DNA from: Slackia sp.
Lineage (GTDB): Bacteria > Actinomycetota > Coriobacteriia > Coriobacteriales > Eggerthellaceae
Length of the DNA stretch: 64,000 nucleotides
Assembly: GCA_030527325.1 (NCBI GenBank)
Contig: JAUNBA010000007.1
Span: forward strand, 1-64,000
Reading direction: 5' to 3'
The position numbers and the translations under genes are program-made. Positions 9,896-20,313 of the stretch are shown in pieces (within the stretch, counting starts at the first letter, position 1; each line of letters begins with the position of its first letter). The notes beneath the pieces are model-generated. The model searched no databases. It was not told the origin of the DNA and saw nothing but the letters and a program-made list of their open reading frames with translations.

Positions 9896-10639
9896 CTACT
9901 CCGTCCGGCGCAAGCCGCGCAACGCGGCCAGCAGCGCGACGCACGAAGCGAGCGCCGCGGCAAGCGCTCCCACGAGCGCTCCCGCCGCCGTATCGGACGT
10001 CTTCGCGATCGCATCGCTCGGCGCGGCCGCGTCGAAGTGCGGCGCGCCCTGCGAATCCTGAGACCCCGTGCCGCCCGACGAGGAATCGGGCTCCGTCGAG
10101 CCGGGCGTGCCTTCCTCCTGCGCGTAGAACGTCCACGTGAGCACGCGCTCGTCGCCCGCCGTATCGGCCCCGAGGCTCGTCGGCACCTCTATCGTCACCG
10201 AACCCTCGACGGCGCCGTCGCCTTCGAGCGTCGCCAGGCGCACCGGCTGCGCCATCCCGTGCGAATCGCCCACCGTGCCGCGCTGCATCCGGCCGTCGAA
10301 GACCGCTTCCACCGCGATGTCCTCGATGCCCGCCACCTGACCCGCATCATACGAAGCGCCCGCGTACACCGTCACCGGCTCCTGCACGCCCACCGCTTCG
10401 ATGGCGAATTCCTGCCGCGCCGTATCGCCCGGCATCAGATCCTTGCACGACGCGAACAGGTCGCCGCCTTCCGCGTCGCGATACGAAAACGTCTTGCTTT
10501 GCCCGTCGTAGACAAGCGTGGGAACGCCGTCGGCGGGCAGCGCCGCGAACGCCGCCGCGCCGCCGCATGCCAATGACGCCGCCAGAGCCACGGCCGAAAC
10601 CGCGACCGCTCCTTTATATGCCGAACGCTTCATGCTCAT
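9896..10639 (-). CDS. Secreted surface protein with C-terminal sorting-like anchor, last gene of the SipW operon
   Basis: A 247-residue exported protein. The N-terminus (MSMKRSAYKGAVAVSAVALA...) is an ordinary signal peptide, probably cut after AAAFA. The mature part has DLMPGDTARQEFAIE and LTWTFYAQEE segments, which resemble TasA/camelysin-type beta-sandwich proteins. A Ser/Gly/Gln linker leads to IAKTSD, a strong hydrophobic helix and the basic tail RGLRRTE, the layout of a sortase signal although LPxTG is degenerate. The start ATG 10639 overlaps the upstream stop as ATGA, implying translational coupling. It may tether the fibre proteins of the operon to the cell wall; that role is inference. 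No sortase lies in the window. Confidence 0.7.
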   Translation of the reverse strand: MSMKRSAYKGAVAVSAVALAASLACGGAAAFAALPADGVPTLVYDGQSKTFSYRDAEGGDLFASCKDLMPGDTARQEFAIEAVGVQEPVTVYAGASYDAGQVAGIEDIAVEAVFDGRMQRGTVGDSHGMAQPVRLATLEGDGAVEGSVTIEVPTSLGADTAGDERVLTWTFYAQEEGTPGSTEPDSSSGGTGSQDSQGAPHFDAAAPSDAIAKTSDTAAGALVGALAAALASCVALLAALRGLRRTE

Positions 10640-11412
10640 CGCGCTTCCCCTTCCGCCGCCGGTGCTGCAGCGGCGCCGTCCGCCAACACGCCGTCGGGTC
10701 CGACGGCCAGACCGCTCGAGGGGCCCCATGCCGCCGCGAACGCATCGGCGGGATCGGCCTGGACGGCCTGCATGGCGATATCGACCACCAACCTGCGGCC
10801 GTCGTCGTAGCGAGGATGCTCCGTGCAGCGAGCGATCAAATCGCCGCTCGAAGCGCCGGGCTGCAGCGGAGACGTCCAGTAATACAGGCCGTCGTCCGCG
10901 CGCACCCACGAAGACGCCTGGCCAGGCGCGCCGAACGCGCCCCATTCCATGGCGTAATCGTACGCCTGGCCGTCGTCCGCCGGCGCGGATGCGCGCTCGA
11001 CGGGCTCCTGGCCGAGCCTGACGCCGTTCGCATCCTCCCAATACACGCTCACCTGGGCACGCATGTACGAGTCCACATTGCCGGGATCGGGCGGATTGGC
11101 CGCCTTCACGTGCTCTTTGACGCCCGCCTCGGGCGCGAACTGCTCGTCGATGGCAGGCTCGAGCGTTCCCCTCGTGAAGAGGTTCGGCAGCTGCGATGAG
11201 GCCTGATACCACGCGAACACGCCGCCCGCGCACGCGAGCGTCAGGCATACGCAGGCCGCCGCCGCGATAAGCGCGCGGCGCGCCGGACGCGGCGCGCCAT
11301 CGCGCGGGGGCATCGAAAACCCTGCGGGGTCCGATGCCGTCGTGCGCTTCGTCGATCCGCCGCGCTCGATGCGCACGGGCGCCGCATGCATCCCCTGCTT
11401 CGATCGTTTCAT
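10636..11412 (-). CDS. SipW-dependent TasA/camelysin-like exported protein
   Basis: A 258-residue protein. After a long basic cytosolic N-terminus (about 1-44) comes a hydrophobic helix ending FAWYQASSQLPNLFTRGTLEP, which matches the alternate signal peptide cut by SipW-type peptidases (hydrophobic core, AW/Y-F, then N-x-F-x-x-G). The mature region contains YWEDANGVRLGQ and DDGLYYWTSPLQPGASSGDLI, the aromatic-rich YYY-x-x-x-L-x-P-G signature of this family. The ATG at 11412 follows directly on the upstream TAA. It is probably a minor fibre subunit; function inferred from family and operon. Confidence 0.75.
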   Translation of the reverse strand: MKRSKQGMHAAPVRIERGGSTKRTTASDPAGFSMPPRDGAPRPARRALIAAAACVCLTLACAGGVFAWYQASSQLPNLFTRGTLEPAIDEQFAPEAGVKEHVKAANPPDPGNVDSYMRAQVSVYWEDANGVRLGQEPVERASAPADDGQAYDYAMEWGAFGAPGQASSWVRADDGLYYWTSPLQPGASSGDLIARCTEHPRYDDGRRLVVDIAMQAVQADPADAFAAAWGPSSGLAVGPDGVLADGAAAAPAAEGEAR

Positions 11413-14400
11413 TTACGCTTCACCGCCTTCTTGGGCCGAAGCCGCCGCATGCTGGGCGGCGAACTCGTTTTTCGCACGCACGGATCCGTCGAGCCACGAG
11501 GAATCCTTCAACGTGTTCGTGCACGTCACCGTCGCGGGGGAAACCAGGTCGAGCACCGCCGAAGACGGATCGGCCGGATCGATCGTTCCCTGCGGGCATT
11601 CGATCGTCGCCTCGTAGCGCCACGCCCATGCGGCGTCTTCGCTCACTTTGTAGCGTCCGACCGGCATCGCGAGCGTCACGCGCGCGCTGTAGAAGCCGTC
11701 GGCATCAGGCGCGGCGGGCATATCCACGAAGACCATGCGCGTCGCAGGCGTTTGCCCGGGCGCGACCGGACCCGCGTCTTCGACCGTCAAGGCGAACGTC
11801 TGCCCTGCAGCGGCGCTATCCTTCGTGCGCTTGACCAGCGTCAAAACGGCATCGAAGTCGAAGACCGCATTGCCCTGGGCGTTCGTCGGCTTCACCGTCG
11901 GATCGGTCGACGCGCTCGAGACGTACAGCGCCACATTGCGATCGCTCAGCGGCGCGAAGGTCGTGCCGACGGCGCCTTCGGGCGTCGGCGCGTAGGAAAC
12001 CTGCTGCACGTTCACCGTGAGGCGTGCCTGCGCATACGGGGCCTTGAAGTACGCCTTCACGGGCGTTTCAGCATGCGAATCGAGCGCCCACAGCAAATCG
12101 TCGGTGTTGACCGCGCCCGCTGCGTCGGCCGAGCGAACCTGCCTGGTCACCGGATACAGATCCATATCGGAGGCGATCGGCGTGCGGCAGAACTCATCCC
12201 ACGCGGCGATAGAGGCGTCGGGACGCACCCACTGCCACGTGTTGAAGAGCTCGCGCATATCGAGCGCCGTCGATGCGTCGAGCTGGGCGGCGATGGCCTG
12301 CCACGCCTCGGAGTCGAGCACCACGTCCTGCATCATCCCGTCGGGACCGGGTTCCTGCGTCACGAAGCTGCGGCCTTCCGTCTCGGAAACATGGGCCGTG
12401 AACAGCACGCCGCCGTCCGTGCCGTGATAGCGCACCTCATGCACGCGCTCGAACACCGCGGTATAGACGGCGCCCGAGAACACGTCGCGCGCGTCGAGCG
12501 CATGCTCCTCGCCCGCCGACACCAGCGAACCGGGCTCGGCCGCGGATACGTAGCCTTCATACCAACCTTTGAACTCATAGCCCGCATACGGCGCGGCCTG
12601 GAGCATCAGCGCGCCTTCGGGACCGCGCGCAAGCGTACGCACCGTGGAAGGGTCGACGCCTGCGGCCGCAAGCACGTCGTCGATGTTGGAGTTCACCGTC
12701 ACCGACGCGACGCGATACACCGCGAACAATTCCATGGCATGCTCGACCGCGTCATGCTCGTCGGTCAACGCGGGCGTGCCGTCGGCGGCCCAGAGCGCGT
12801 ATTCCGCTCCGTCGGCAGGACGCTGCTCGGTCCATCCGACGAACACCGCGCGGCCGCCCACGGCGGCATCGACGGCGTTCATGTCGAATGCGGGCACGCC
12901 CTCGGGAGCCTTGCCCAAAGGATCGCCCTGGTTGCGCACCACCGTGGCGGTCTTGCCTTCCGCGACGTGATACACCACGGCCAAAGGCTCGTAGTTCGCC
13001 ACGAACGTATACGTATAGCCGGGCGCGATCTTATACGTCAACACGGCATGCTCGTTGGAAACGGGCGTACCGTCGGGTGCCGGCGCGCCGCCGGCGTCGA
13101 CGGCGTCGACCGTGCGCACCGCGCCGTCCGAGCGCTCGACCGTCCAGGACTTGAGCTCGTAGGGAACGCCATCGGCGCTGACCAGGGTCGATGTATCGGC
13201 GGTCACGCGCACGTCGATCGTGTAGTCGTCGTTTTCCGCAGGCGCGAGCTCGGCGGTGGGATCGAGCGGCACGTTCACGCCCGAGCCTGCGACGACGCCC
13301 GAGCGGGCGATGTTCGTCGTGGTGTCGTACGCGTATTTCGCATAGACCGGATACAGGTCGGTGGCGCGCTCCGTCTCATCGCCCACGTCGATCGTGTAAT
13401 TCAGCGCAAGGTCCGCGTCGGCCGTGCAATAGCCGTCGCCCGTGTTGTAGATGGCGTTCCACAACGCGCCGCCGCGCTCGCACGGCTGGCCCGCGGTGCC
13501 GTCGATCCAGCCCAGGAAGCGATACCCGGGTCGATGCATCGAGGCGTCCGACGGCGAAGGCTCGCCGACGAGGTCGGCGGCCTGAGCGCCCAGCACGGCA
13601 TCGAGGTCGGCCTCGGCGATCGGATTGCCCGAAAGCGGGAAGCTGAAGTCGCTCTTCGGGTCATGCGCGGCGTCCTTCAGGATGGTGGACAGGTACTGAC
13701 GCTGCACCGTCACGTCGGAAACGCCGCCCGCTGCGACGGGCACCTCATGAAACACCACGTCGGCCGTCATGTGGGCCACGTATTCGTAGGTCCTGTCGGT
13801 ATTGTGCTGGAAGCGCGTGCGATCCCAGTCGGGTTCGGCGGACAGATTATGCTTGCCGCCCGAACCTTCGGCCACCCAGAACCAGAACGTGTAGCCGGGC
13901 TGCGCCGTCACATGCACCGCGAAATCGCCGATGCCGGACGTCAGGCTGTTCGGCTTGCCCGTGAAGTTCACCGTGCCCGCTCCCGGGAAGTCGACCAGGG
14001 CCTTGATGTCCCATTCCCTGTCTTTGGTCATGTGGCCGTACGCCTTCATGGCGGAAACCACCTGGTACTCGGCGGTCAGCGCATCGGCTCCCGAACACGG
14101 GTCGGGAGCTGCGGCCCAATGCTGCAGATTCGTGCCGTAGAACACGCCGAATTCCGCAGGATCGAGCACCTGAAACGCGCTTCGGTACGGCTGCCACACG
14201 CTGCGGCCCAAAGCGTATTCCTTATGGTTCTGCATGTTGCCGTCGCCCGTCAGCGATTTGATCATGTAATCCACGCGGTATTCGAGTCGCGCCTCGTACG
14301 TATGCTGCTGCGTCAGATCGACCTCTTCGGGAAGCACGTATTCGGGTGTATCGGCCACGCGGCGGCTGCTGCCGTCGGGCATCTGCTCGTACCAGCCCAA

Positions 14401-16989
14401 GAAACGGTACCCGTCGGGCAATGTGCCGTCGTTTTGCGCGCCCGTCATCGTCACGGCGTACCGGCCGTCCTGCTTTTTGACCACGTCGGTGCGGCCCACG
14501 CCCTCGCGCAGCGTGAAGTCGTCGGAGGCGTCTTGCTCGTTGCCTTCGAAGCGCGTAATGATATTCGAGGCGTAATCGGCGTAGACGGGATACAGGTCCA
14601 TCGGCTGCACGATGGCGTCGCCTGCTTTCACGAAGGCGCCCGCCTGCTCGATATCGCCCATCTGCGATGCCGTCACAGACGGATAGCCGCCGCCCGTCAC
14701 CGGATGCGGCAACCAAGTCCAGCCCAGAAACACCGCGTCGGGGCCCACGCCGCCCGTCGTGCGGTCGGCCTGCGGCTCGGCCGCCTGCGGCAACGCGGCT
14801 TCGTGGTCGTACCAATCGTCGCTCGTATCGGCATCGGGCGCGCCCGCCGTATTCACCACGTTGCCCGCCACGTCATGGAAGAGCACCTGGCCCTGGCAGT
14901 ACGCCACGAACAGATCGCCGCCCGCGAAGCCTTCGGCCGTGCCGGGGCCGGTATTGCGCGCCGTATACGCCGCATCGGCAGAGACGCGCTTCGCCGGGTC
15001 GGACACGATGGGATCGAAAAACACATGGGACTCGTCGACTTTATCGACCCTCACGTCGGGCTGGCGGTACCAGCCGTTGAAGCGATAGCCCCCGTTATGC
15101 GCGGCGTCGGATACCGCGGGCGTCGTCTCGGGCGAAACGCCGTTGAGCGTCATGGAAAAATCCATGTCGAAATCGCTCGGCATGAAGCCCTGCACCGCGA
15201 ACTCGTAGGGCGTGCTCGTCGACTGCGGGCGGCCTGCGCCCAACACGTCGCTTTCGCCGATGCCCGCCGTGCCCGCGCCCGGGAAGTCGAACGTCGCCTT
15301 CACGGCGTCGCCATGCACGGGAATGCCCAGGTCGTAATCCATGACCCACCTGTTGGCGTGCGGCGCGCCGTCCATATACGCGGTGCTGCGCTCGGTGCCG
15401 CCCGTGAAGTCGAAGTCGTGCGATTCCCAGAAGGAGCGGTCGGCATACGTCGTCTCGTCCTGCGCGCCGAACGAAGCCCCGCTGTAGACCTTCTTGTTAT
15501 TCTTGTTGAAGATGGCGGGGATATCCTTGTTCGTGCCCGGCTCGGCGCTGAAATGCGGCGCGAAATACGAATTCGTGATCGTGCAGCCGCCATCGTGGTC
15601 CCATTCCACCAAGCCGCCCAGATACAGGTTCTTCTGGATGATGGGGATGACCAGCACGGCGTTGTACAGATACGAATGCAGGTTGCCGGCGTAATGGCTG
15701 CGCACCACGTGGACCGCCTCGTCCGTGCGTGCCACCAGGCCGCCGACATACCCCACGTTGCCGGCGCCGACGCTTACGTACGTGGCGGCGTACGTGTAGC
15801 AATCGGCCGTGGAAAAGCAGTCCACCATATTGGCGGAGTTGCCGTACAACGAGCCGCAGATGCCGCCCGCGTACACGGCCTGACCCGCCACAGCGCCGAC
15901 CGCGATGTCGTACTTGTTATGCACCTGGGTGAACGTCAGGTTCTTCGTTCCATCGGCCTGGGTTTCGCGCAGCGGGGTCACGCGGCTGTATTCGATCGTC
16001 GAATTGTGCGCCACGCCGACGAGCGCGCCGAGGTACAGGCCCTCGCCGCCCAAGCCCGAAACGCCGACGGTCGAATTGTTGATAACGCGGCCGCCCTGCA
16101 CCTCCACGTCGTAGACGACGCAGTTCTCAAGCTCGCCCGCCACCATGCCGCCCGCCAGGCCGGCGTTGGTGATCAGCGACACGGCATTATTCGCCGGCGT
16201 CACCGACGACGTGCAGTTGGTCAGCTTGATATGCTCGAGGCGCGTGTTCTTCGCGCATCCCACGATGACGCCGCCGCGGTAGTCGGCGCCCACATAGGCG
16301 TCGGTGAAGTTGATGTTCTTGATGACGGCGCCGTCGGTCCAGGCGAACAGGCCCGTATCGGGGGCGGGAACGAACAGCTGGCGCTCGTAATTCAGTCCTT
16401 TGATGGTGTAGCCGTTGCCGTCGAAGGTGCCGCGAAACGGGTTGTCTTTGCTGCCGAACGTCAGCGATCCGATTTGAGAAATAATCTGGTCCACCTGGTC
16501 GCTCGTCAGATCGAGCGTCTTATCGGGCGCATCCGACATATCGAGCATGTAGTACACGCCCGACGTGTCGGCCGTGCGCGACAAAAGCACCTGGGCAAGC
16601 AGGTCGGAGAAGCTGCGGATGTAGGTGATTTCGCCCGCAGCCGCGCGCTCGGACGCATCCGTCGATCGAGGGTCGACAGGCGCAGGCGCGCTTTCCGCCT
16701 GGACGGATTCCGACGCCTTCGCGCCGTCGCTTGCCGCAGTCTGCTCGACGGCAGGATCGGGCGCAACGACGCCTTGGTCGGCCGCCGCGCTTTTCTGCTC
16801 GGGCGCGGGCGCAGCCGTCTCGGCCCCCTGCTCGAGCGCGTCCGCCGGCACGCTCTCTTCGGCGTAGGCGCTTTGCGGGGCCAAAGGGCACAGCGTCAGC
16901 GCCAGCATGAGCGACATCGCCACGGCGCAGCACCGCTGCCACCGCGTTCGCTTCGCCTGCATTCCCGTTCGTTCGGCATTCCCTCGCAT
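11413..16989 (-). CDS. Very large secreted surface protein (beta-helix plus InlB-type repeats)
   Basis: An 1858-residue exported protein. A signal peptide (about 1-43, cut after SAYA) and a low-complexity Ala/Glu/Pro region (44-110) come first. Residues about 170-560 are rich in GG-x-V-G, NG-Y-T-I-G-L and G-G-L-V-A-type turns typical of GLUG-like right-handed beta-helices. Residues about 560-1680 carry repeated units with GYRFxGWY/FLGW motifs, characteristic of Listeria-Bacteroides (InlB B-type) repeats; at least six such motifs are visible. The C-terminal 120 residues resemble a SpaA/Cna-B-like domain ending CTNTLKDSSWLDG...KNEF. There is no C-terminal membrane anchor. It is flanked by TasA-like genes with a TAATG junction upstream and TAAATG downstream. 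Likely an adhesin displayed on, or bound to, the fibre; inference. Confidence 0.8.
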   Translation of the reverse strand: MRGNAERTGMQAKRTRWQRCCAVAMSLMLALTLCPLAPQSAYAEESVPADALEQGAETAAPAPEQKSAAADQGVVAPDPAVEQTAASDGAKASESVQAESAPAPVDPRSTDASERAAAGEITYIRSFSDLLAQVLLSRTADTSGVYYMLDMSDAPDKTLDLTSDQVDQIISQIGSLTFGSKDNPFRGTFDGNGYTIKGLNYERQLFVPAPDTGLFAWTDGAVIKNINFTDAYVGADYRGGVIVGCAKNTRLEHIKLTNCTSSVTPANNAVSLITNAGLAGGMVAGELENCVVYDVEVQGGRVINNSTVGVSGLGGEGLYLGALVGVAHNSTIEYSRVTPLRETQADGTKNLTFTQVHNKYDIAVGAVAGQAVYAGGICGSLYGNSANMVDCFSTADCYTYAATYVSVGAGNVGYVGGLVARTDEAVHVVRSHYAGNLHSYLYNAVLVIPIIQKNLYLGGLVEWDHDGGCTITNSYFAPHFSAEPGTNKDIPAIFNKNNKKVYSGASFGAQDETTYADRSFWESHDFDFTGGTERSTAYMDGAPHANRWVMDYDLGIPVHGDAVKATFDFPGAGTAGIGESDVLGAGRPQSTSTPYEFAVQGFMPSDFDMDFSMTLNGVSPETTPAVSDAAHNGGYRFNGWYRQPDVRVDKVDESHVFFDPIVSDPAKRVSADAAYTARNTGPGTAEGFAGGDLFVAYCQGQVLFHDVAGNVVNTAGAPDADTSDDWYDHEAALPQAAEPQADRTTGGVGPDAVFLGWTWLPHPVTGGGYPSVTASQMGDIEQAGAFVKAGDAIVQPMDLYPVYADYASNIITRFEGNEQDASDDFTLREGVGRTDVVKKQDGRYAVTMTGAQNDGTLPDGYRFLGWYEQMPDGSSRRVADTPEYVLPEEVDLTQQHTYEARLEYRVDYMIKSLTGDGNMQNHKEYALGRSVWQPYRSAFQVLDPAEFGVFYGTNLQHWAAAPDPCSGADALTAEYQVVSAMKAYGHMTKDREWDIKALVDFPGAGTVNFTGKPNSLTSGIGDFAVHVTAQPGYTFWFWVAEGSGGKHNLSAEPDWDRTRFQHNTDRTYEYVAHMTADVVFHEVPVAAGGVSDVTVQRQYLSTILKDAAHDPKSDFSFPLSGNPIAEADLDAVLGAQAADLVGEPSPSDASMHRPGYRFLGWIDGTAGQPCERGGALWNAIYNTGDGYCTADADLALNYTIDVGDETERATDLYPVYAKYAYDTTTNIARSGVVAGSGVNVPLDPTAELAPAENDDYTIDVRVTADTSTLVSADGVPYELKSWTVERSDGAVRTVDAVDAGGAPAPDGTPVSNEHAVLTYKIAPGYTYTFVANYEPLAVVYHVAEGKTATVVRNQGDPLGKAPEGVPAFDMNAVDAAVGGRAVFVGWTEQRPADGAEYALWAADGTPALTDEHDAVEHAMELFAVYRVASVTVNSNIDDVLAAAGVDPSTVRTLARGPEGALMLQAAPYAGYEFKGWYEGYVSAAEPGSLVSAGEEHALDARDVFSGAVYTAVFERVHEVRYHGTDGGVLFTAHVSETEGRSFVTQEPGPDGMMQDVVLDSEAWQAIAAQLDASTALDMRELFNTWQWVRPDASIAAWDEFCRTPIASDMDLYPVTRQVRSADAAGAVNTDDLLWALDSHAETPVKAYFKAPYAQARLTVNVQQVSYAPTPEGAVGTTFAPLSDRNVALYVSSASTDPTVKPTNAQGNAVFDFDAVLTLVKRTKDSAAAGQTFALTVEDAGPVAPGQTPATRMVFVDMPAAPDADGFYSARVTLAMPVGRYKVSEDAAWAWRYEATIECPQGTIDPADPSSAVLDLVSPATVTCTNTLKDSSWLDGSVRAKNEFAAQHAAASAQEGGEA

Positions 16990-17711
16990 TAGCGACCTTC
17001 TTTCTGCGGCCAGCCCTCGGCCTCGAACACGCTCGGGCCGTTGTTTTCGCTTTGCACGGCCACGGCATCGACGGTGAAATCGAGCGTTCCGCCGCGATAC
17101 CGTTCCTGCGCTCCGTCGGCGTCGATCGAAAGGCCCGTGATCACCGGGGCGCTCGTCTCGCCCGCGCCCAGCACGGCGTCGTAGTAATACCAGCCGTCCC
17201 GATACGACCAGGCGGGATCGCCGATCGTATACGACGCCAGATCATCGGCGTTCGACGCCGCGCCGTGCTCGTCGGTTCCCTGCATATGCAGCGACACGCG
17301 CACGAACACCGGATGCGAGCTCGTGTTGCGCACGCGCACGATGCGGCTATGCTCGCCTTCGATGCCCACCGCCACCGGCTCGTCGGGCACCGCCACTTCC
17401 TCCCCCGAGGGGCCGCGCATGGTCTCGACCGCCTGGATGCCCACGTCGCCGAAGGAAAGCCGGTTGTTCGCATCCACCGAACGCACCGAGAACGAAACGG
17501 CCTGCAGCGCGGCCAAAACCGCGATCAGCGCCGCAGCGCACGCGATGCACAGCCTGCGCGTCTTGGCCGCAGGCGATGCTTTCACGCAGCCCGCGGCAGC
17601 GTCGGATGCGCCGCCCGCAGCAGCGTCGTCTTCGAAGGACTCGCCGGTAAGAGATGCCCGCGCCGCGTCATCTCGCATCGAAGAATCCTTGCTTCGCGCC
17701 TTATCGCCCAT
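16989..17711 (-). CDS. TasA/camelysin-like exported protein
   Basis: A 240-residue protein with an unusually long cytosolic N-terminus (about 1-62, acidic and Ala-rich) before a hydrophobic helix, LCIACAAALIAVLAALQAVSF. The helix is followed by VDANNRLSFGDVGI, a SipW-type signal with the N-x-x-x-F-G pattern. The mature part contains RVRNTSSHPVFVRVSLHM and WSYRDGWYYYDAVLGAGETSAPVI, the beta-strand and DGWYYY-L-x-x-G-E-T signature common in SipW-dependent proteins. The start ATG 17711 was chosen for the CAGGAGGTTG site 7-16 nt upstream. The stop shares a base with the next start (TAATG). Confidence 0.75.
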   Translation of the reverse strand: MGDKARSKDSSMRDDAARASLTGESFEDDAAAGGASDAAAGCVKASPAAKTRRLCIACAAALIAVLAALQAVSFSVRSVDANNRLSFGDVGIQAVETMRGPSGEEVAVPDEPVAVGIEGEHSRIVRVRNTSSHPVFVRVSLHMQGTDEHGAASNADDLASYTIGDPAWSYRDGWYYYDAVLGAGETSAPVITGLSIDADGAQERYRGGTLDFTVDAVAVQSENNGPSVFEAEGWPQKEGR

Positions 17712-17820
17712 AGCCGCAACCTCCTGTTCGCCGTATCCCGCGAGGCGGCGGCGCACCGGGCGCCGTCGCCTCGACGAAGGGCGGGGGCGGCCCAAGCCGC
17801 GCCCCGCGCTCCGCTACAGC

Positions 17821-17863: not shown

Positions 17864-18562
17864 CTATTTCTGGCTTGCAGCCCACGCGATAGCGGCATCG
17901 GTCGCGTCCTTGGCGGACAGGACCTCGCTCGCGTTGGACTTGGCCACCATGTAGCAGCTCACCGTCATCGTGGGGCTGCCGGCGATGGAGGCGTTGGGGT
18001 CGGCGACGACCTCGGAGAACAGCTCGCCGGTCCACACGTCGGTCGTGCTGGGCTGCAGCATAGCTGCCTCGGCACCGTCGGCGACGTACATGAACAGACC
18101 GCCCTCATAGGCCTGAGCGCCGCCCGTGGCATGCTCGGTCGCCTGGCCGGCAACCGGCTTCCAGTGATCCTTCAGCGTGAAGTACGTACCGCTGCCCAGG
18201 TCGTTTTTCACATAGGCGAACACGTATGCGGCATCGCTCTTAGGAGCAAGGCCGATGTTGGGGTTTTTGGCCACGTGGCTGCCCGCGGTAAGCTTGGAGC
18301 CCTCGACCCACTTGTCCTCGACGATATTGCCGTTGACCTGGCCCTGATGGCCGCCCTCTTCAGGCTTCACTTCAGGCTTGAGGGGCTTTTCAGGCTGATC
18401 GGGATCGGTCGTAGGCGGTTTGATGTTGCCCACCGCGAACGTGTTGGTCAGCGAGCTTTGAGAGGCGTACCACGCCATCACGCCGCCCACGGCCGCAAGG
18501 GCCAGGCACAGCACCAGGGCGACGATCAAGCCCGTGCGCTTCTTCGTTTTTTCCATGTTCAT
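17864..18562 (-). CDS. SipW-dependent TasA/camelysin-like protein, probable major fibre subunit
   Basis: A 232-residue protein with a textbook alternate signal peptide. Basic MNMEKTKKR is followed by the hydrophobic core LIVALVLCLALAAVGGVMAWY and then SLTNTFAVGNIKPP. A Pro/Lys/Glu-rich stretch (about 50-70) precedes a mature domain with AYVFAYVKNDLG and TYFTLKDHW segments. TasA and camelysin polymerise into matrix fibres in other bacteria. The start ATG 18562 has AAGGAGC upstream. It directly follows the signal peptidase gene, as tasA follows sipW in Bacillus, and is first of the substrate genes; the stem-loop after it hints at higher expression. Major-subunit status is inference. Confidence 0.78.
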   Translation of the reverse strand: MNMEKTKKRTGLIVALVLCLALAAVGGVMAWYASQSSLTNTFAVGNIKPPTTDPDQPEKPLKPEVKPEEGGHQGQVNGNIVEDKWVEGSKLTAGSHVAKNPNIGLAPKSDAAYVFAYVKNDLGSGTYFTLKDHWKPVAGQATEHATGGAQAYEGGLFMYVADGAEAAMLQPSTTDVWTGELFSEVVADPNASIAGSPTMTVSCYMVAKSNASEVLSAKDATDAAIAWAASQK

Positions 18563-18655: not shown

Positions 18656-19204
18656 TCAGCGGCGCGCGTGGGCCCCGCGCACGCCGTCCGACGAGGCGCC
18701 GTCCTTCTTGCGGCCGCCGAACAGCTCGACGGCGATGGACAGAGCCAAAAACACCCCCACGAGGGAAACGATCACGAAAAAGCCGGTGCCACTCGTGCAC
18801 CATGCGTTGAGATAGCCGAGGAAAGGAATGCAGAACACAGGAACGCCCACCATGCGGGAAAACGGAACAGGGGCGGCATCATGCACGATGGCGCCGTTTT
18901 CGTCGACGTTGGCGATGCCCTGCGTGTAGAACAGGGACGATTCGGCATCGATGTCGTACACCTGGTGCGTGACCAAGGTGCCCGATTCCAAACTGAACGT
19001 GATGGCGTCGCCCACCTGCACGCTGGCGGGATCGTGTTCTTGAACGTAGATAAGCGAGCCCACCGGATATTGGGGCTCCATGCTGCCGCTGAGAACGGCA
19101 TACGGGGTAAGGCCTATGAGGCGCACGCCTGCAAACGCGATGAGCAGTGCCACGGCCACCGCCAGCACGATTCCGGATACAACATTGAAAACGCGCCGCA
19201 GCAC
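18656..19204 (-). CDS. sipW: SipW-like (ER-type) signal peptidase I
   Basis: A 182-residue membrane signal peptidase of the ER/SipW type, which removes the special signal peptides of the exported proteins encoded downstream. An N-terminal helix (about 8-30) leads to the catalytic Ser41 in LSGSMEP and the His80 in LVTHQVYDID that replaces the Lys of classical bacterial enzymes. A second helix lies near 133-160 before a basic tail. The usual G-D-A-N box reads FYTQGIANVDENG (Ile for the first Asp), with Asp101 nearby. The start is GTG 19204 with AGAGGTGA upstream. It is the first gene of the operon, and the downstream SipW-type substrates support the call. Confidence 0.88.
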   Translation of the reverse strand: MLRRVFNVVSGIVLAVAVALLIAFAGVRLIGLTPYAVLSGSMEPQYPVGSLIYVQEHDPASVQVGDAITFSLESGTLVTHQVYDIDAESSLFYTQGIANVDENGAIVHDAAPVPFSRMVGVPVFCIPFLGYLNAWCTSGTGFFVIVSLVGVFLALSIAVELFGGRKKDGASSDGVRGAHARR

Positions 19205-19331
19205 GCCGACTCACCTCTGTTTCTTACAGCTCGATACCCTTTTCAAGCGAGGAGAAACGGCACTCGTAACGTGAGGCGAGGGTTGTAAAAAACGGTCGTC
19301 GGACTTGCGGGGTCGCTTGTAGAATTCTCCT

Positions 19332-19378
19332 CGAATAATTCAAGGATACGGAGCCGACCCCCCCCCGTCAATTATTCG
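19332..19378 (-). promoter_or_regulatory. Promoter of the sipW/tasA-like operon with poly-G spacer and flanking inverted repeat
   Basis: On the minus strand TTGACG (19371-19366) and TATCCT (19348-19343) are exactly 17 bp apart, and nine consecutive G (19366-19358) fill the end of the -35 and half of the spacer. Nine-base inverted repeats CGAATAATT (19332-19340) and AATTATTCG (19370-19378) bracket the promoter. The start codon is about 130 nt downstream of the predicted start point. Nothing gene-like is present in the 344-base stretch 19205-19548. Confidence 0.6.
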
Positions 19379-19452
19379 CACATAAGAATAAAACCACACT
19401 ACGGCAATAAAACGCTCATTAATGTGGCGCAACTTCGCGCTAAAACGCAGGT

Positions 19453-19484
19453 GAGGCGGGTCTTCCCGAAGGAAAACCCGCCTC
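19453..19484 (-). terminator. Hairpin downstream of the ABC permease gene
   Basis: A 9-bp stem GAGGCGGGT/ACCCGCCTC with an inner TTCC/GGAA extension and CGAA loop, about 65 bases after the permease stop. The T-run is distal (CCTGCGTTTT on the minus strand), so termination efficiency is uncertain. Confidence 0.5.
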
Positions 19485-19548
19485 AGAAAACGCGTGTAAA
19501 AATTTTTCGAAAATTTGCAAACGGCAATGCCGAAACGCCGCGAATCCG

Positions 19549-20313
19549 CTACCGGGTAGACACTCCACGGCGGCGCCAACGCGTCATCGCGCGCTCCGCC
19601 GCATCGAACAGCTCGTAGAGCACCACGCCCAAAAGCGCCATGGCGATGATGCCCGCGAACATCTTGGGATACGCGAGCAGCGCCCAGGAATCCACGATGA
19701 AATACCCCAGCCCCGTGGACCCCGCCAGGCTTTCGGCGAAAAACAGCAGCGCCACCGCCGTGCCGCTGGAAATGCGCAAGGCCGTGAACAGGTCGGGCAA
19801 CGATGCCGGCACGATGACGTGACGATACACGTCGAACGCATTTCCTCCCAGCGAGCGCATGGACACGACGCTTTGCTCGGGAACGTTTTGCACCGCGCCG
19901 CGCACCGTGACCAGCACCTGGAAGAACACCGTCAGCGCGATCAGCGCGATCTTCGGCGCATCGGCCAAGCCCATCAGCACCACCAGCACGGGCAGCAGCA
20001 CCACCTTCGGCAGCGGATAGAGGAAGTAGAGCACGGGCGCGAACACCGCATCGACGCGCGCCGAGCGGCCGCATACCAGGCCGCACGGAATGGCGAGCGC
20101 GGCGCCGATGAACATGCCCGCCACGACGCGATACAGGCTGGTCAGAAAGGCGGGCCACAAATCGTCGAAATACACGGCCATCATGGGAAACGCCTCGAAG
20201 GGACCCGGCAGCACGGGATTGCCCACCGCGCGGGCGGTCAGCTCCCATCCCGCAAGGATGAACGCGATGGCGGCGGCATAGCCGATCGCCTTGCGCACGA
20301 ACGCATTACGCAT
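19549..20313 (-). CDS. ABC transporter permease, NitT/TauT (SsuC/TauC) type
   Basis: A 254-residue inner-membrane permease with about six helices. The cytosolic coupling loop, roughly MRSLGGNAFDVYRHVIVPASLPDLFTALR, matches the EAA motif of the nitrate/sulfonate/taurine/thiamine-precursor family. The AGWELTARAVGNPVLPGPFE N-terminus is also typical. The start ATG 20313 follows GAAAGGAGCC; it overlaps the ATPase gene by 8 bases. No substrate-binding protein gene is adjacent, so the complex is incomplete here and the substrate cannot be named. Confidence 0.88.
   Translation of the reverse strand: MRNAFVRKAIGYAAAIAFILAGWELTARAVGNPVLPGPFEAFPMMAVYFDDLWPAFLTSLYRVVAGMFIGAALAIPCGLVCGRSARVDAVFAPVLYFLYPLPKVVLLPVLVVLMGLADAPKIALIALTVFFQVLVTVRGAVQNVPEQSVVSMRSLGGNAFDVYRHVIVPASLPDLFTALRISSGTAVALLFFAESLAGSTGLGYFIVDSWALLAYPKMFAGIIAMALLGVVLYELFDAAERAMTRWRRRGVSTR

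Follow-up and report, generated by a model that had tools for sequence, protein, structure and literature searches.

What drives the sipW operon of this Slackia genome, and could a run of nine G residues in its promoter switch the operon on and off? The question arises from an earlier note on a 64-kb window (the whole stretch of DNA that was analysed), in which a phase-variable promoter, bracketed by inverted repeats, was proposed upstream of a SipW/TasA-like operon. Here we have used sequence analysis and comparison with related genomes to decide which parts of this proposal hold.

A G tract in the predicted promoter of the sipW operon

Positions 19332-19378 of the window read CGAATAATTCAAGGATACGGAGCCGACCCCCCCCCGTCAATTATTCG on the plus strand and CGAATAATTGACGGGGGGGGGTCGGCTCCGTATCCTTGAATTATTCG on the minus strand (19378-19332). 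On the minus strand a -35 hexamer, TTGACG (19371-19366), is separated by 17 bp from a -10 hexamer, TATCCT (19348-19343). The G9 homopolymer (19358-19366) begins with the last G of the -35 hexamer and occupies the upstream half of the spacer, as had been described before, and with its flanks the tract fits the pattern TTGAC-G(n)-TCGGCTCCGTATCCT. An uninterrupted homopolymer of at least eight bases in or beside the promoter is one mark of a phase-variable promoter, and here it is present as G9 within TTGACG-17-TATCCT. This pair, with 9 of 12 matches, is the sole sigma-70-like pair within 19100-19700; as shuffled sequences contain 0.5 such pairs per region, the hexamers by themselves are no proof. 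The G9 is likewise the sole run of G or C of at least eight bases in the 64 kb (two overlapping G8 matches, both within G9), and since shuffles of the window hold on average 2.1 runs of G8 or longer, its mere presence is not improbable. It is the conservation upstream of sipW orthologues, as judged by comparing assembled sequences, that lifts the G tract above chance. A terminator-like hairpin (19452-19485, minus strand, read from the sequence) ends the upstream ABC-transporter genes, and therefore sipW needs a promoter of its own, for which TTGACG-17-TATCCT is the natural candidate.

The sipW gene (18656-19204, minus strand, with a GTG start at 19204) encodes a signal peptidase I of 182 aa that scores 82 bits with TIGR02228 (cut-off 51.85) and 25.3 bits with Pfam Peptidase_S26 (cut-off 22.9). 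With the Bacillus SipW equivalog model NF046067 it reaches 70 bits, below the cut-off of 190, and by these scores the predicted product is a SipW-type enzyme (type-I ER-type, S26B), not the Bacillus equivalog. Five genes follow on the same strand. The first (17864-18562) codes for a secreted beta-rich protein with a signal peptide of the SipW-cognate type, a putative fibre subunit (TIGR04088, E=0.002, 18.2 bits, cut-off 19), whose orthologues are 38-60% identical and take the second place in four operons. It is followed by a second exported protein of uncertain start codon (16989-17795; weak BsaA-family match, E=0.027, gene order conserved), by a giant exported protein of 1858 aa with Listeria-Bacteroides (InlB-type) repeats (11413-16989; PF09479, 35.8 bits), whose counterparts at the same place in the operon measure 1793-2015 aa, and by a BsaA-like SipW-dependent protein (10636-11412; TIGR04090, E=4e-5, below the curated cut-off). 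The sixth gene (9896-10597, start approximate) encodes an exported protein that has a hydrophobic stretch at its C-terminus; family searches with this protein gave no match, and it has a counterpart in Slackia piriformis. The order of the operon is kept in S. piriformis and in the uncultured Coriobacteriaceae L063, and that of the first four genes in Collinsella stercoris.

From these protein families we infer a surface-fibre operon. The TasA-like character claimed for it is borne out in part: the SipW-type signal peptide and the BsaA-like proteins are there, but the matches to the TasA/camelysin models TIGR04088, TIGR04090 and PF12389 are all below threshold. For the putative fibre subunit the structural model is too uncertain for a TasA fold to be assigned (mean pLDDT 64; the TasA fibre 8aur reached only Z 4.5, in the company of numerous unrelated beta folds).

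The leader between promoter and sipW contains a stretch, GACGACCGTTTTTTAC (19285-19300, minus strand), that sequence comparison finds identical in Slackia sp. S23M. At a like place, the leaders of Slackia faecicanis and Slackia sp. S30M (in L061 and L062) carry a clear hairpin and a T run; in S. faecicanis the hairpin is strong and the T run comes after it. Folding of the window leader revealed no significant overall structure (z 0.30). The leader is a possible attenuator.

A conserved G tract ahead of sipW

Four other Slackia species have orthologous sipW genes, with proteins 62-79% identical to that of the window, and all five Slackia genes are preceded, at 140-165 nt, by a G tract (G9, G9, GGGGGCGGGG, G10 and G9; these lengths are assembly consensuses, with one genome per species, and homopolymers are error-prone). 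A tract that is kept while its flanks diverge is a second mark of a phase-variable promoter, and this is the situation in the five species, where the surrounding DNA has largely diverged and the tract is unbroken in four and interrupted in S. piriformis. As G9 runs occur in Slackia at about 2-4 per Mb (57 contexts in 26 Mb), the four unbroken tracts at sipW are not a matter of chance. The divergence of the region also explains our DNA searches, in which the 261-bp promoter and leader DNA of the window had no match outside its own genome among 60 relatives, and the promoter plus sipW region had none in plasmids. Gapped patterns for length variants of the window's tract found none in viral contigs.

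The promoter elements around these tracts are kept to different degrees. Slackia sp. S23M has G9 in TTGACG-17-TATTCT, with the -35 hexamer and the spacing of the window, and S. piriformis has the same -35 hexamer and the interrupted tract in TTGACG-18-TAGCAT. In the uncultured Coriobacteriaceae L063, whose tract is the interrupted GGGGGAGGGG, we found TTGACGGGGGAGGGG with TACTAT at 18 bp. The G10 of S. faecicanis and the G9 of Slackia sp. S30M have no good -35/-10 pair around them. Sequence and comparative evidence support the earlier note in placing a sigma-70-like promoter, with a homopolymer in its spacer, ahead of a SipW-type operon.

Two further Slackia promoters, TTGACG-17-TACCAT (genome G007) and TTGACT-18-TATCTT (S. 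piriformis), have G9 elsewhere in the spacer, and both precede large exported proteins. A different tract, G11 (GGGGGGGGGGGTATCATTGC), lies in the window's own genome (G000:C22:34565-34575, L046) at the start of an ORF whose N-terminal part is transmembrane; two other Slackia genomes have comparable G(n)TGCTATCATYGCC contexts, and this is a candidate variable locus.

G tracts at sipW in Collinsella and beyond

Collinsella-type sipW genes have a different upstream tract, TTTAATGT-G(n)-TACGAT, which in five genomes precedes the start by about 300 nt (among L190-L194 and L204-L209). In these five, n is 9, 9, 13, 11 and 9 between conserved flanks, a variation between species; a sixth genome (G310) has the tract with n = 9 about 4 kb upstream of sipW. 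Compared across species, with one genome for each, tract length ranges from 9 to 10 in Slackia and from 9 to 13 at the Collinsella sipW tract. C. stercoris (L064/L186; L064:8960-9495) has its G9 inside the coding start of sipW. There, the GTG that has a ribosome-binding site opens a frame of only 24 codons, and the full-length frame (177-178 aa) is open at tract lengths of 3n+1 only, so that the reference assembly may hold sipW in an OFF state, or an assembly error; the C. stercoris SipW protein query was approximate, and only its genomic matches were used. In Paraeggerthella, sipW is internal to its operon and a G12 lies 2.6 kb upstream. Outside Actinomycetota, a Ruminococcus sp. MAG (RGIG4760, L098) has G15 256 nt upstream of a sipW-like match.

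Candidate TTGAC-G9 promoters across Coriobacteriales

Is the promoter of the window one of many? In 397 Coriobacteriales genomes TTGAC followed by G9 occurs at 34 places; the reversed pattern occurs at 9 (Poisson P about 2e-10) and the anagram TGTAC followed by G9 at 3. Some of the matches, several of the longest runs among them, fall at contig ends or within low-complexity sequence and are likely artefacts. A TANNNT -10 element is found at a spacer of 12-23 in 15 of the 29 sites with enough sequence, whereas the 12 bases that come next contain one in 3 of the 29; the spacer is 17 bp five times, 18 three times and 19 four times, and 13, 15 and 22 also occur. An ORF for an exported protein, called with a simple hydrophobicity rule and not with a trained predictor, follows 16 of the 26 sites with enough downstream DNA, compared with 6-8% of random positions, although the proper baseline may be higher, since promoter-like sites without a G run are followed by such an ORF in two of nine cases. 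In other Coriobacteriales genera, five loci (L169, L170, L172, L174 and L177) have TTGAC-G9-11 promoters 85-105 nt before large exported proteins, which share the N-terminus xARLAATAGLGLAL..GAAPVVA and form a candidate phase-variable adhesin family.

MutS1 was found in none of 31 relatives and in 11 of 14 control genomes. Our broader proposal, for and against which we see about equal weight, is that poly-G contingency promoters (TTGAC-G9-12 plus a TANNNT -10) serve large exported proteins throughout the Coriobacteriales lineage, and that the SipW operon has come under at least three separate tract architectures, namely in the promoter spacer (Slackia), as a different upstream tract (Collinsella) and as a frame-shifting tract within sipW (C. 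stercoris).

A slippage model for the sipW promoter

We propose that the SipW-dependent surface-fibre operon is probably driven by a sigma-70-type promoter that is phase variable in the manner of porA. During replication, slipped-strand mispairing would add single G residues to G9 or remove them, a process that the absence of MutS1-type mismatch repair may aid, and each one-G step would shift the distance between -35 and -10 around its optimum of 17 bp. Transcription of sipW and of the five genes behind it would be high at G9 (17 bp) and low or off at other lengths, and the assembled window would thus represent the ON length. Those parts of this reading that concern slippage in a clone, its consequences for expression and the fibre function are inferred.

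The phase variation suggested by the earlier note gains weight from the conserved Slackia tract, the variable Collinsella tract, the frame-shifting tract of C. stercoris and the enrichment of TTGAC-G9 before exported proteins; a role of the bracketing repeats in switching finds no support. Three observations fit the model less well. The interrupted tracts of S. piriformis (GGGGGCGGGG) and L063 (GGGGGAGGGG), both with 18-bp spacers, should slip little, yet they stay G-rich, as if G-richness itself counted; S. faecicanis and Slackia sp. S30M have no good -35/-10 pair bracketing the tract; and tract lengths vary little in Slackia (9-10).

Alternative readings and the inverted repeat

The main rival is a fixed promoter, in which the G-rich spacer is kept for binding of a regulator, or a stiff A-like DNA form sets promoter strength, and the inverted repeat is the operator of a dimeric regulator. 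It draws its best support from the interrupted G-rich tracts (5+1+4) of S. piriformis and L063, and the nearly constant tract length in Slackia fits it as well. Nevertheless, we consider this reading unlikely: the Collinsella tract, whose flanks are conserved, holds 9 to 13 G, the G tract of C. stercoris, placed in the sipW coding start, has no promoter role, and the -10 spacers scatter order-wide (13, 15, 17, 18, 19 and 22).

The repeat itself bears on this question. Perfect 9-bp arms do lie outside the hexamers, as had been claimed: read on the minus strand, the left arm CGAATAATT (19370-19378) overlaps the -35 hexamer with its last two bases and the right arm AATTATTCG (19332-19340) surrounds the predicted transcription start (expected near 19336), the repeat spanning -35 to +1, as an operator could. 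The pair occurs once in the 1.67-Mb genome and neither arm is conserved in relatives; in addition, when the local 121 bp are shuffled, 1.4% of the sequences contain a 9-bp inverted repeat with a gap of at most 60, and for the 344-bp intergenic stretch the figure is 8%; taken alone, the repeat is thus weak evidence, little above chance. The arms are absent around the orthologous tracts, which leaves a role of bracketing repeats in switching unsupported, and the repeat as a shared operator was rejected, given that its arms are not conserved across species; this also weakens the fixed-promoter reading. In favour of that reading, other repeats are associated with G-tract promoters. In S. piriformis (L060) a perfect 10-bp inverted repeat, AACACTAAAC..GTTTAGTGTT, lies just upstream of the interrupted-tract sipW promoter, whose -35 it overlaps. 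In other genera, at L149, L150, L151 and L153, TTGAC followed by G9-10 is bracketed by TGTCATAG / CTATGACA, arms that resemble an operator for a regulator, with the G-tract promoter between them; the next gene at L149, L151 and L153 encodes a Tat-signal oxidoreductase (putatively of the molybdopterin type, by its N-terminus), and at L150 there is a lipoprotein-like ORF.

The tract could also have been phase variable formerly and now be locked in some species and drifting, G9 being too short for a useful rate of slippage. Two sipW promoters do have interrupted tracts, and G9 is near the lower end of known switching tracts. This reading seems improbable to us in view of the unbroken tracts of 9-10 in four Slackia species against a diverged background, the 9 to 13 G of the Collinsella tract and the failure to find MutS1 in the relatives.

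That the homopolymer is a chance run or an assembly artefact beside an unrelated promoter is a poorer explanation still, to which we give very little credence: the shuffles do yield about two G8+ runs per window and a hexamer pair in every second region, but the tract upstream of sipW recurs in independent assemblies, from isolates and MAGs, and the order-wide enrichment holds against two controls, so that conservation largely refutes it. Finally, inversion of the promoter by a recombinase acting at the repeats, to which their perfect match and their position exactly outside the hexamers might point, can practically be set aside, because the core measures 29 bp and the repeats are unique in the genome, missing in all relatives compared and expected in 1.4-8% of shuffles; the comparative evidence on the tract favours slippage over inversion, which was also the preference of the earlier note.

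Significance and comparison with known systems

What would slippage at this promoter mean in vivo? Slackia, Eggerthella-group bacteria and Collinsella are common residents of the human gut whose surface structures are little known. If fibres and large adhesins switch by tract slippage, cultures and hosts would carry mixed populations, a single reference genome would display one state only (perhaps sipW OFF in C. stercoris), and differences in adhesion or host response among isolates may reflect phase and not gene content. The idea is directly testable, since sequencing data that already exist allow the tract lengths to be read. Promoters with a homopolymer spacer are known, and their occurrence in Coriobacteriia is apparently unreported: our literature search, which missed most subscription journals, found no report of homopolymer phase variation in Eggerthella, Collinsella, Coriobacteriia or a SipW operon, and the leading matches of a broader search on Coriobacteria all concerned other bacteria.

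The tapA-sipW-tasA operon of Bacillus subtilis combines a SipW-type peptidase with secreted fibre-type substrates, and is controlled by SinR, SinI and SlrR, not through a repeat tract. The Slackia operon shares the SipW-type peptidase and, putatively, the secreted fibre-type substrates; unlike in B. subtilis, sipW comes first and is followed by a giant InlB-repeat protein and BsaA-like proteins, and control by a repeat tract is proposed. In Bordetella pertussis the fim promoters have a C tract upstream, between the activator site and the -10, whose length switches a surface appendage. A promoter homopolymer would have the same effect here, but it is a G tract placed inside a sigma-70-like spacer. 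Homopolymeric tracts of B. pertussis are the subject of a published report (PMC1891110).

Closer in phylogeny is Gardnerella, also of the Actinomycetota, where according to the accessible portion of one report (PMC11287997) variable G/C tracts of at least eight bases lie upstream of surface-protein genes, including those of InlB B-repeat proteins, and slippage was shown for one gene. The likeness consists in homopolymer tracts upstream of surface-protein genes within the same phylum; the class is another one, and that portion of the report makes no mention of a -35/-10 spacer architecture or of a SipW operon (PMC11287997). The nearest mechanistic parallel is the porA promoter of Neisseria meningitidis, with poly-G between -35 and -10, in which expression is high with 11G, intermediate with 10G and low with 9G (PMC3639595; also PMC3899988). 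As in porA, a G homopolymer lies between -35 and -10 and a major surface component would be driven, and graded expression in one-base steps is predicted here. The differences are that phylum and gene are others, that the tract begins within the -35 hexamer, and that the promoter, which would switch in the same manner, serves a SipW-dependent fibre operon and not a porin.
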